64,000 bases of DNA. Source: a virus. Below are positions 3,632 through 6,624 of the stretch, in pieces. The stretch is taken from positions 1-64,000 of the IMG/VR virus record IMGVR_UViG_3300020395_000002; one strand, written 5' to 3'. Within the stretch, counting starts at the first letter, position 1. Every line of letters begins with the position of its first letter. The position numbers and the translations under genes are program-made. The notes under the pieces are model-generated. The model saw only the letters and a program-made list of their open reading frames with translations. It ran no database searches and was not told the origin of the DNA.

Positions 3632-3667
3632 GACTTCCTTAAATTGTATCAGTCGATACAAAACTAC

Positions 3668-3696
3668 TTGACTATATAATATAACTGTGTTATTAT
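3668..3696 (+). promoter_or_regulatory. Sigma70-type promoter
   Basis: TTGACT (3668-3673) and TATTAT (3691-3696) are separated by 17 nt, near-consensus for host sigma70. A transcript would begin near 3703 and carry the structured leader 3711-3763 into the small gene at 3764. This makes it a candidate for host-polymerase (early) expression. Confidence 0.65.
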
Positions 3697-3710
3697 TAAC
3701 ACAATCGTTC

Positions 3711-3763
3711 AACCCAAAAGGGTCGCAAGTAAGCCGACACGGAACGGATACGTTCATCCCAGT
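3711..3763 (+). promoter_or_regulatory. Structured leader with GCAA...GCCGAC...GGAACGG motif
   Basis: An ACCC-AAAA-GGGT hairpin (about 3712-3724) is followed by CGCAAGTAAGCCGACACGGA and a CGTTCATCCCAGT run up to the ATG at 3764. The core GCAA..GCCGAC..GGAACGG recurs at about 3911-3935. It is the only G+C-rich non-coding stretch here. There is no purine-rich Shine-Dalgarno directly before the ATG. Possibly an RNA control element; this is inference. Confidence 0.4.
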
Positions 3764-3925
3764 ATGTTTCATCTAGCAGTTATTGCATCTACCTTCTCTT
3801 GTATGGACGCTCAACTTCTTATCGATAAGATGTATGAGTTTAATATAGAGGATGAGACACGAGCAGAAATGATTCTGGTTGTGATAGAAGAAACACCTGA
3901 ATGCTGGGACGCAAATGCCGACTGA
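3764..3925 (+). CDS. Small conserved-looking protein (53 aa)
   Basis: Translates to a 53-aa acidic protein beginning MFHLAVIASTFSCMDAQLLI and ending EETPECWDANAD. It reads as an alpha-helical small protein, and I believe it is conserved in cyanophages next to the DUF4278-like gene. The promoter (3668-3696) and structured leader precede it. The last codons overlap the second copy of the GCAA..GCCGAC..GGAACGG motif. Function unknown. Confidence 0.7.
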   Translation: MFHLAVIASTFSCMDAQLLIDKMYEFNIEDETRAEMILVVIEETPECWDANAD

Positions 3926-3966
3926 AGGAACGGGGATTAAACCACCCTACTTTCAGGAGAAAGCAA

Positions 3967-4110
3967 ATGACAACAGTCACTTATCGTGGAATCAAGTACG
4001 ATTCTGAAGAGTACAACGCAAGAGTGCTTGCAGAAGCATCAAAGCGTAACAGACACGATCTAATGTATCGTGGACTCAAGGTTAACAGCAAGGCAAAACC
4101 TTGTAGCTAA
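3967..4110 (+). CDS. Small DUF4278-like protein
   Basis: A 47-aa protein with two copies of the YRG motif: VTYRGIKYD at the N terminus and LMYRGLKVN at the C terminus. This is the hallmark of the cyanobacterial DUF4278 family. The ATG at 3967 is set by AGGAG (3955-3959), 7 nt upstream; an upstream in-frame start at 3901 would read through the leader. It is followed by a strong terminator. Family function is unknown. Confidence 0.75.
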   Translation: MTTVTYRGIKYDSEEYNARVLAEASKRNRHDLMYRGLKVNSKAKPCS

Positions 4111-4118
4111 CACCAAAG

Positions 4119-4144
4119 AGACCCCTAAATAGGGGTCTTTTTTT
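4119..4144 (+). terminator. Rho-independent terminator
   Basis: AGACCCCT (4119-4126), loop AAAT, AGGGGTCT (4131-4138), then a run of T to 4144. Together with the promoter at 3668 it bounds a ~440-nt transcription unit. The loop and its flanks spell CTAAATA, the late-promoter-like motif. Confidence 0.92.
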
Positions 4145-4173
4145 ATGGCCTACATAATTAAAGTGGGAACTAA

Positions 4174-4543: not shown

Positions 4544-4661
4544 AGAACATCCAGGATGGTATACAGAACAAGAAGTATACTATGCTAAAATGATTAAGAA
4601 AAGAATCAAAGCAAACAAACTTCGTAATGTAAAAGATGAGAGTGGAAGCGGAACTAGTTGA
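4500..4661 (+). CDS. Small basic hypothetical protein (53 aa)
   Basis: From the ATG at 4500: MKDKKAAKLIIKRSKEHPGW then YTEQEVYYAKMIKKRIKANK. A Lys-rich small helical protein. The phrase HPGWYTEQE resembles KPWLYTTEE in the small gene at 6621, so the two may be distant relatives flanking the oxygenase cassette. The ATG at 4500 is preferred over 4470 because the Lys-rich domain starts there. Function unknown. Confidence 0.6.
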   Translation: MKDKKAAKLIIKRSKEHPGWYTEQEVYYAKMIKKRIKANKLRNVKDESGSGTS

Positions 4662-5304
4662 ACCTATCTTTCCTTTGCCATTAGCATACTATAAGTATCC
4701 TGATGACAAACATAAGGAACTGTTAGACGCAACTCGACAAGCAATTAAAAAGGTGCAACCTGGCTTTGCAGAAGGTAAGGCAGGTGCGTTAACGCATTTT
4801 TATCAGCATCAAAAAGAACATTTGTTATACGATAATGAAGATGAAATCTTCCAGCACTTTCACGACTGGTTGGAGGAATGTTATGCTGACTATGTGACTA
4901 ACGTACAAGGTTGGAAGATGACAGATAAAACATTCATCACCGACTGTTGGGTTAACGTTACTAAGGAGGGTGGTAATCAGGTACTACATTCACACGCTAA
5001 TGCATTTGTGTCTGGTACATACTATCTGCGTATGGAAGATGGTTCTGGACAGATAATGTATATCAATCCTTGTGCAATGGCTAACAGACCTTACTTTGGA
5101 TTTGATAACTGTAAAGCTACACCTTACAATGAGGCACAACACTTTGGTAACTGTCAAGAACAGTATCTTATTTTGTGGCCAAGTAATCTATCTCATATGA
5201 CCACACCTACTGAGAAAAATGCCACTAGAGTTTCTATCTCTATGAACTTTATGCCACAGGAATTCCTAGCTGGTGCTTATAATTTTAAGGTGACTAAGAA
5301 GTGA
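4636..5304 (+). CDS. Putative 2OG-Fe(II) oxygenase, cassette copy 1
   Basis: A 222-aa protein of the TIGR02466 / 2OG-FeII_Oxy_5 type. It has DCWVNV before an LHSHANAFVSGTYY block (H118, H120), then LILWPSNLSHMTTP (H187) and TRVSISMNF (R198). These supply the likely metal-binding histidines and the 2-oxoglutarate-binding arginine of the double-stranded beta helix. First of three adjacent paralogues. The substrate is unknown; protein or small-molecule hydroxylation is typical of the superfamily. It overlaps the previous gene by 26 nt and the next by 4 nt. Confidence 0.85.
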   Translation: MRVEAELVEPIFPLPLAYYKYPDDKHKELLDATRQAIKKVQPGFAEGKAGALTHFYQHQKEHLLYDNEDEIFQHFHDWLEECYADYVTNVQGWKMTDKTFITDCWVNVTKEGGNQVLHSHANAFVSGTYYLRMEDGSGQIMYINPCAMANRPYFGFDNCKATPYNEAQHFGNCQEQYLILWPSNLSHMTTPTEKNATRVSISMNFMPQEFLAGAYNFKVTKK

Positions 5305-5975
5305 GAATATCACCTAATAGAATTGACTTACGTAGTATGTTTGCTACACCTCTTGGCACATATAAAATGCCAGAGGATAAGCACGAAGAATTTAAGGTTG
5401 CTGTACGTGAATCAATAAAAAAATCTGACGTAAGAATTAATGATGCAGCACCATCTTTAAAACATTATTATCAGAAGAGTGCAGAGCATTTACTGTATGA
5501 TAATGATGAACCTATCTTTAAATATTTTCATAGGTGGTTGGAAGAATGTTATTGTGATTTTGTTATAGATGTACAAGGATATAATAGTTCACAAGATGTG
5601 TTTGTTACTGACTGTTGGGTTAACGTAGCAGCAGAGGGTGGTCATCAAGTGATGCACGCTCACGCTAACTCTTTGGTATCTGGTACGTACTACGTACATA
5701 TGGAAGGGCAGTGTGGTGATGTGGTGTTCTGTAACCCTTCAAATTCTGCTAACAAACCTTACCTACAACATATGATACTAAAGGACTCACCGTTTAGTGC
5801 TTCACAAGAGATAGGTAATGCAAGAGAAGGACATCTTATATTATGGCCAGGTCATTTAAACCATTACACCTTGCCAACTGGAGCAAATTCTGCTAGAGTA
5901 TCAGTCTCAATGAATTTTATGCCACAGGTACTTACGTATGGTGGATACAATTATAGGTTAACTAAGGATGAGTAG
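5301..5975 (+). CDS. Putative 2OG-Fe(II) oxygenase, cassette copy 2
   Basis: A 224-aa paralogue of the preceding gene, sharing AEHLLYDNDEPIFKYFHRWL, TDCWVNVAAEGGHQVMHAHA, NSLVSGTYYV, LILWPGHLNHYTLP and RVSVSMNFMPQ. Metal-ligand histidines (HAHAN, then LNH) and the Arg of ARVSVS are kept, so this is not a decayed copy. It starts with GTG at 5301, overlapping the previous stop (GTGA). It is the copy most similar to copy 1, consistent with local duplication followed by divergence. Confidence 0.85.
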   Translation: MRISPNRIDLRSMFATPLGTYKMPEDKHEEFKVAVRESIKKSDVRINDAAPSLKHYYQKSAEHLLYDNDEPIFKYFHRWLEECYCDFVIDVQGYNSSQDVFVTDCWVNVAAEGGHQVMHAHANSLVSGTYYVHMEGQCGDVVFCNPSNSANKPYLQHMILKDSPFSASQEIGNAREGHLILWPGHLNHYTLPTGANSARVSVSMNFMPQVLTYGGYNYRLTKDE

Positions 5976-6624
5976 AGAAAGAGTCATTGAAATGTTTCCT
6001 AAAGCATTAGGTGTTTATCGTTGGGATAATACTGATGGACATAAGCAACTTAAGGAGGCGGTGAGAGAAAAGATGAAGACCAAGGAGATCGATGGTTCTC
6101 CTGTGTCTAAAGATATATTTCACTTCTGGAATAAGAGTGGAGAGAATTTTCTAGATGAAGATGCACCTATCATCAAGGACTTTGAAAAGTTTTTGGGTGA
6201 GAGTTACCTAGATTTTATGAAGGATGTTAATAAGTGGGATGTGGTTGATGAGTATATTATTACTGACTGTTGGGTTAATGTTACACGTCAGGGAGGGTGG
6301 CAGTATAAGCACAGTCACGCTAACTGTGTTATCTCAGGCACTTACTACTTAAATTTTCCTGTTGGTGCTACTGGTATTACGTTCCACGCACAGACAAAGG
6401 AGAAGAGTGACCCGTACCTAGCATTAAATCCCAAAGACATATGTCAGTTTAACAGTGAGTCCTTGACTATGATGCCAGAGGAGGGTATACTCTTCCTATG
6501 GCCAAGTCAACTTACACACGAGTGTAAGATCCTGACCACTAACGTACGTAGGGTATCGATTTCTATGAACTTTGTACCTGCTGAGTTAGACACTGGCATT
6601 TATCGTTTACGTTTATCACGATGA
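5968..6624 (+). CDS. Putative 2OG-Fe(II) oxygenase, cassette copy 3
   Basis: A 218-aa paralogue of the previous two but more divergent. It shares FLDEDAPIIKDFEKFLGESY, TDCWVNVTRQGGWQYKHSHA, NCVISGTYYL, LFLWPSQLTHECKI and RRVSISMNF. HSHAN, the distal His in LTH and the Arg are present. Overlaps copy 2 by 8 nt and the next small gene by 4 nt. The three copies are read as one translationally coupled unit. Confidence 0.85.
   Translation: MSRERVIEMFPKALGVYRWDNTDGHKQLKEAVREKMKTKEIDGSPVSKDIFHFWNKSGENFLDEDAPIIKDFEKFLGESYLDFMKDVNKWDVVDEYIITDCWVNVTRQGGWQYKHSHANCVISGTYYLNFPVGATGITFHAQTKEKSDPYLALNPKDICQFNSESLTMMPEEGILFLWPSQLTHECKILTTNVRRVSISMNFVPAELDTGIYRLRLSR

Follow-up and report, generated by a model that had tools for sequence, protein, structure and literature searches.

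Why does the genome of a virus of marine cyanobacteria carry the same GC-rich motif, GCAA..GCCGAC..GGAACGG, once in a leader and once more at the end of a tiny gene? The two copies lie at 3725-3747 and 3911-3933 of the sequence analysed here (the window: 64,000 nucleotides, positions 1 to 64,000 of IMG/VR record IMGVR_UViG_3300020395_000002), in a region that, as a first-pass annotation had proposed, does have the makings of a small unit. The GGAACGG heptamer occurs 5 times in the 64 kb, compared with 1.75 expected, and 3 of 100 shuffles reach 5; this count by itself is weak evidence, and the significance of the motif comes from its conservation in relatives. The first-pass annotation had taken the copies for two instances of one free-standing motif. 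Each is better described as the 3' half of a glutamine aptamer, the downstream aptamer being split by the whole of gene 1, and the complete unit is quite probably a phage-borne tandem glutamine riboswitch with a split second aptamer, ending in a DUF4278 gene.

At a relaxed threshold, the leader region matches the Rfam glutamine riboswitch family RF01739 (3704-3750; 32.6 bits, E = 5.7e-5, gathering score 35) and the glutamine-II family RF01704 (3703-3754; 25.5 bits, cut-off 33). No Rfam family was detected at the gathering threshold in the 64-kb window, so that annotation would miss this compact aptamer (aptamer 1). The first-pass annotation had noted the ACCC-AAAA-GGGU hairpin of the leader (3712-3723) but had overlooked the identity of the leader as a glutamine riboswitch.

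The second copy finds its partner on the other side of a gene. A second CGUUCA, at 3751, had escaped the first-pass annotation; it pairs with motif copy 2 around the whole of gene 1. The 5' half of aptamer 2, CGUUCAUCCCA, directly precedes the AUG of gene 1, and the 3' half includes the final codons of the gene together with its UGA stop (3923-3925). The outer helix (CGUUC/GAACG) comprises 5 bp, 3751-3755 with 3928-3932, and the arm helix extends to up to 9 bp with one G-U, UCCCAGUAU (3757-3765) with AUGCUGGGA (3901-3909), and includes the pairing UCCCA/UGGGA; the complete gene 1 (53 codons) lies between. Judging from the comparison with relatives, the segment before gene 1 almost certainly provides the 5' strand, the last codons of gene 1 and the nucleotides that follow its stop provide the 3' strand, and the hairpin loop contains gene 1 itself (Table 1). 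A 9-bp match at such spacing is not unusual alone (17 places in 63,840), and the case for a split aptamer is carried by comparative evidence.

Table 1 Features of the tandem aptamer unit, in window coordinates.
Feature	Position	Strand	Evidence or remark
Promoter-like site, TTGACT-17-TATTAT	3668..3696	+	Pattern scan, 10/12 positions; no proof of function alone
Inverted repeat, TGTGTTA-TTAT-TAACACA, adjoining aptamer 1 on its 5' side	3686..3703	+	Complementarity in relatives
Aptamer 1, compact glutamine riboswitch aptamer: CGUUC/GAACG, hairpin ACCC-AAAA-GGGU, CGCA linking strand	3706..3747	+	Rfam
Aptamer 2, 5' half: CGUUCA and hairpin arm (3757-3765)	3751..3765	+	Overlaps AU of the gene 1 AUG
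Gene 1, 53 aa, within the hairpin loop of aptamer 2; phrog_504 / T4-like GC 430	3764..3925	+	phrog_504, E = 4.6e-11
Aptamer 2, 3' half: hairpin arm, CGCA, core and GGAACGG	3901..3933	+	Compact homologs with the same core
Candidate expression platform: CUGAAGG/CUUUCAG hairpin	3922..3956	+	Predicted minimum-energy structure, recurrent in relatives
Gene 2, 47 aa, DUF4278	3967..4110	+	PF14105, 25.4 bits (cut-off 25.3); phrog_5049, E = 2.2e-21
Intrinsic-terminator-like hairpin and T run	4119..4145	+	Sequence; pattern scan reports stem on minus strand only

A search with gene 1 retrieved 80 IMG/VR loci, nearly all with CGUUCA-UCCC immediately 5' of the AUG and UGGGACGCA...GGAACGG at the end of the gene. 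Among 68 distinct relatives, chosen by gene 1 protein, CGTTCA is found ahead of the gene 1 start in 68 and the 3' elements are correctly positioned in 67; hence, RNA-level conservation of the motif, which the first-pass annotation had suggested, holds in homologous loci, with 5' CGTTCA, CGCA and GGAACGG all placed as expected in 67 of 68. In the remaining relative (L035), the core is shifted by one base. In 194 of 198 split second aptamers and 60 of 60 split first aptamers, an ORF starts shortly 3' of CGUUCA, mostly at a distance of ≤15 nt, and its stop codon falls within the core or the hairpin arm. In L323, L247, L262 and L295, the 5' CGUUCA of the second aptamer is 190-389 nt off and no simple nested ORF was found; these inserts possibly contain a frameshifted ORF or are of a different kind.

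The arms covary across the gene. For 65 distinct joined arms, 54 two-sided cells were observed vs. 26.5 ± 4.1 in shuffled arms (0/500), and the covariation score, 0.165 vs. 0.080 ± 0.010 shuffled (0/500), exceeded that of all slid registers; each of the five variable hairpin pairs shows two-sided changes. In a non-redundant test, with homologous proteins thinned to <80% identity, pairs 4 and 5 of the split second aptamers, in which C-G, U-A and A-U are all represented, were paired in 94% and 88% of cases vs. 81% and 79% in shuffles, and pairs 3 and 4 of the split first aptamers in 100% and 68% vs. 80% and 39% (0/2000 in both aptamers). Because relatedness inflates shuffle-based covariation tests, more weight is given to variants without the gene and to codon data. 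Among 68 distinct gene 1 ORFs, the terminal codons are fixed: GAC for Asp at −5 (66/66), GCA for Ala at −4 (66/66), GCC for Ala at −2 (52/52) and GAC for Asp at −1 (67/67). In the ORFs of the window, GAC accounts for 30% of Asp codons and GCC for 2.7% of Ala codons (approximate values, the count including nested ATG starts). Synonymous divergence of gene 1 is 0.10 in the last six codons vs. 0.37 in the body. By the measure of codon choice, the last codons of gene 1 follow the RNA, GCC being invariant though rare here. In P-HM1, where FKDAKAD replaces the C-terminal WDAxxD, the arm changes to match (UCCUUA/UAAGGA).

The gene can also be absent. Gene 1 is missing from P-TIM68, a phage of Prochlorococcus, and from the single-cell virus AG-345-P14; in the same place, they have a compact second aptamer, CGUUCA-UCUC-UUAG-GAGA-CGCAAAUGUUGACUGAAGGAACGG and CGUUCA-UCCUC-UUCG-GAGGA-CGCAAAUGUGGACUGAAGGAACGG, respectively, with scores of 35.4 and 37.8 bits for RF01739. 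The three compact second aptamers tested, these two among them, are all at or above the RF01739 gathering score of 35 (L085, 37.8; L082, 35.4; L104, 35.3 bits), and that of L085 scores 33.0 bits with RF01704 (cut-off 33). The matches listed in a pattern scan include >100 further compact copies from IMG/VR, and the exact 3' core of the window, CGCAAAUGCCGACUGAAGGAACG, recurs in compact form in several contigs, including L100.

Three other explanations can be weighed against these data. If copy 2 merely reflected coding-level conservation of WDAxxD beside a vestigial 3' half, with no pairing across the gene, the strong conservation of WDAxxD throughout the gene 1 family would be accounted for, but not the invariance of synonymous sites with use of the rare GCC codon, nor that of the non-coding CGUUCA upstream and GGAACGG downstream, nor the two-sided covariation across gene 1, the compact versions without a gene and the pairing retained in the W-less P-HM1; we give this explanation almost no credence. 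Alternatively, the two copies could build one composite aptamer, in which the outermost strands, CGUUCA at 3706 and GAACG at 3928-3932, would pair with each other, the AAGUA of copy 1 would lie across from the GAAGGAACG of copy 2, matching the type I consensus, and the GAACG and CGUUC in between would make a local inner hairpin. Copy 1 does have the consensus 5' side and copy 2 the consensus 3' side, the inner hairpin is part of the predicted minimum-energy fold, and the linker between copies is always 3-6 nt. However, each aptamer has its own covarying hairpin flanked directly by CGUUCA and CGCA, and compact second aptamers reach the Rfam cut-off alone, which leaves the composite aptamer improbable as a rival; its fold may be an alternative state of the same RNA.

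The third explanation, less remote than the composite aptamer though still unlikely, assigns the arm helix a role in translation: it would bring the stop codon of gene 1 near the start, for ribosome recycling or for limiting translation to the time before transcription of the 3' arm, glutamine binding being weak or lost. In keeping with such a role, the predicted fold contains the 9-bp arm helix even in the absence of ligand, and 25 split first and 4 split second aptamers have their stop codon within the helix, facing the region of the start codon (stop offset −5). A purely structural helix, however, would not need the known glutamine-contact nucleotides (PMC6698751), all of which are kept in the split copies. 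The reading that we prefer remains that of two tandem glutamine aptamers, one of them split by gene 1.

As regards class, both window aptamers have the CGUUC/GAACG helix and a covarying hairpin between CGUUCA and the CG strand, formed in aptamer 1 by its own hairpin and in aptamer 2 by the arms across gene 1. The ligand-contact and triple nucleotides in the glutamine-II structure are C1, G2, G18, C19, C39, G40 and G41 (PMC6698751), and the contact nucleotides are kept in both window aptamers and in split copies (CGUUC, CGC, GGAACGG); all 552 distinct copies have G at the position that forms the C19:G41 pair, most of these copies having been selected by a pattern that includes CGCA and GGAACG. 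The P3 hairpin and loop E (AGUA/GAA) of glutamine-I were not found, aptamer 1 having AAGUA and a short linker where P3 would be and aptamer 2 having GAAGG without AGUA, and so the unit is not filed under subtype I. Among Rfam families, glutamine-I (glnA), RF01739, nonetheless matches aptamer 1 and compact aptamer 2 best, although aptamer 1 is without the P3 hairpin and the P2 loop of aptamer 2 holds an ORF. The second hairpin of glutamine-II, CURAAG/CUUURG, could enclose GGAACGG, with a loop far longer than in the host consensus. Neither aptamer fully fits type I or type II, and a split aptamer cannot be scored by Rfam models. The glutamine-II (downstream-peptide) riboswitch RF01704 of marine Synechococcus and Prochlorococcus has the same CGUUCA-hairpin-CGCA...GGAACGG core, in the leader of small DUF4278 genes; host copies are compact, whereas the phage unit is a tandem pair with one member split by a gene.

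The first aptamer is split as well in P-RSM4, P-HM1 and many contigs, by another gene (T4-like GC 429, phrog_6471), which terminates either at the UAA within the AAGUAAG of the aptamer or in the hairpin arm, across from its start-codon region. In the sampled loci, the first aptamer is compact in 255 and split in 60, and the second is compact in 134 and split in 198. All four combinations of first and second aptamer were seen (compact/split, 154; compact/compact, 97; split/compact, 34; split/split, 26), these counts being samples, not prevalences, from related and hence non-independent loci. From this survey, cyanophages reuse a nested-gene cassette, with different genes in the two tandem aptamers, in hundreds of related virus sequences. 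As a separate observation, in the first aptamer of L325, L328, L331, L098, L100 and others, the nested start codon pairs with sequence that overlaps its own stop, in the geometry UCUUAUG...CAUAAGA or UCUCAUG...CAUGAGA.

Both tiny genes noted in the first-pass annotation are present. Homologs of gene 1 are annotated in cultured phages; tblastn with gene 1 against a phage collection gave no match, although homologs do exist in PHROGs and IMG/VR. The pN/pS ratios of the gene 1 family and of the family nested in the first aptamer, 0.32 and 0.25, respectively, indicate that the nested ORFs are real genes. Proteins of both families are 49-75 aa long; their N-termini are hydrophobic, and two of their cysteines are (nearly) invariant. 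The two families are perhaps distantly related (hhalign, 93%). Structure models of both represent small helical proteins (mean pLDDT 88 and 85) with no significant PDB match, and Pfam, PADLOC and PHROGs yielded no function. By eye, some nested proteins (L250) have signal-peptide-like N-termini; that they are exported is a guess.

Gene 2 reaches the Pfam gathering score for DUF4278, and related phage genes are annotated as DUF4278. According to a review, glutamine riboswitches associate mainly with DUF4278 genes, the name given to YRG-repeat peptides downstream of these riboswitches, and both riboswitch types activate expression (PMC6316151). Of 150 genomes belonging to the same order as a Prochlorococcus-derived assembly, 116 contain RF01704, and in the host loci inspected a glutamine-II riboswitch lies 5' of short YRG-repeat peptides. 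A split aptamer is present in none of 65 host loci, and the 3' half of the second aptamer is found in only four GTDB contigs, among them L342/L347, which is phage-type sequence; on this distribution, the phage unit appears to be a regulatory module of host type that phages have elaborated. PirA was considered as a relative of gene 2 and dropped: it is absent from marine picocyanobacteria and DUF4278 is unmentioned (PMC8092223).

How the unit might switch can be approached from predicted folds. In the ligand-free Vienna fold, GAACG 3742-3746 forms a hairpin with CGUUC 3751-3755, and both the long-range arm helix and the platform hairpin are present, at −80.0 kcal/mol vs. −70.2 with both aptamers closed; since the arm helix is predicted in the ligand-free fold, it may form with or without glutamine. 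Strands could compete: the linker, 3-6 nt throughout, would let the GAACG of aptamer 1 pair with the CGUUC of aptamer 2, and for the 3' strand of aptamer 2 there is another potential partner near the ribosome-binding site of gene 2 (AGGAG, 3955-3959), which the platform hairpin, sharing that strand, touches. When the aptamer strand was blocked in silico, this site was not consistently opened (mean unpaired 0.50 free, 0.44 blocked), and the computations do not settle the direction of switching. In the glutamine-II structure, ligand contacts lie within the CGUUC/GAACG helix and the CGC strand, the hairpin loop is freely replaced by UUCG, and a two-piece aptamer still binds glutamine (PMC6698751).

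By analogy with the host, it is rather likely that in each aptamer the CGUUC/GAACG helix closes on glutamine and that gene 2, favoured by the closed state, is on at high glutamine. Closure of aptamer 2 would set the gene 1 start codon in or against the hairpin and disfavour new initiation, and ribosomes on gene 1, which starts beside the 5' strand and stops inside the core, would keep aptamer 2 open. Going by the anatomy alone, the chances are slightly below even that closed aptamer 2 restrains the start of gene 1 while gene 1 ribosomes hold the aptamer open, the nested and downstream genes being controlled oppositely. Full pairing of the start codon in the arm helix is no commoner than in shuffles (23 vs. 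20.1 of 85; 16 vs. 15.7 of 33), and sequestration of all three of its bases is not claimed. More tentative still is the general picture of a two-way device, a recurrent cyanophage cassette in which metabolite-induced folding would shut the nested gene and open the downstream one, and ribosomes on the nested gene would block folding of the sensor.

If this reading is true, the aptamer halves frame an ORF in a gene arrangement of which we found no description among riboswitches: the start codon lies against or within the sensor helix, the stop codon lies in the sensor core, and production of one protein would be coupled to how the sensor that governs the next gene folds. Other split aptamers may exist, given that standard covariance searches miss them; in the window, scanning with Rfam detected the compact copy alone, and this below cut-off. 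The unit offers a defined target for studying how cyanophages read host nitrogen status, with a host-like DUF4278 output, and the natural gene-less variants are ready-made controls. No earlier description of a split aptamer with a nested gene was found in the literature covered, a result that is provisional. Group I and group II introns can carry ORFs in peripheral loops, and resemble the phage unit in having a protein gene in the loop of a structured RNA; the phage unit is without splicing RNA, and an intron or other catalytic RNA was rejected, there being no Rfam family at gathering score in the 64 kb. The Yfr6 RNA of Prochlorococcus, a transcript of ~244 nt with a 5' glutamine-II element and a 33-aa ORF, is described with the ORF 3' of the aptamer (PMC1242208), whereas in the phage unit the ORF lies inside it. 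A glnA riboswitch is reported in cyanophage S-CREM1 (PMC9964418) and mentioned for AG-345-P14 (PMC9004378), that is, the same class in related phages; these two reports present Rfam hits only, and no split aptamer or nested gene is mentioned in the text covered.

At the borders of the unit, the host-promoter-like site proposed in the first-pass annotation was recovered by a pattern scan, which found 4 such sites in the region vs. 1.5 expected in shuffles. Its −10 element falls within the inverted repeat, which covaries among relatives, and the transcription start is therefore uncertain. A perfect hairpin of ≥5 bp ending ≤7 nt from CGTTCA is present in 215 of 229 distinct upstream sequences vs. 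26% of shuffles. The arms of the repeat vary yet stay complementary (TGTGTTA/TAACACA, GGGTATG/CATACCT, AGGTCTA/TAGACCT, TGTCATG/CATGACA), at the same position in most loci, and often surround a −10-like TATNAT; the repeat may represent either a hairpin at the 5' side of the RNA or a promoter palindrome of unusual type. At the 3' border, the strong terminator described earlier is visible as a hairpin with a T run, but the pattern scan gave this stem on the minus strand only. In several reference phages (L088, L089, L090, L092, L083), the T4-type late-promoter-like sequence TATAAATA stands upstream of the unit instead of TTGACT, which suggests that the timing of expression may differ between phages. 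Further downstream in the window, three successive ORFs of ~220 aa (4636-5304, 5301-5975 and 5968-6624) look like tandem paralogs that share a TDCWVNV...H.HAN pattern.
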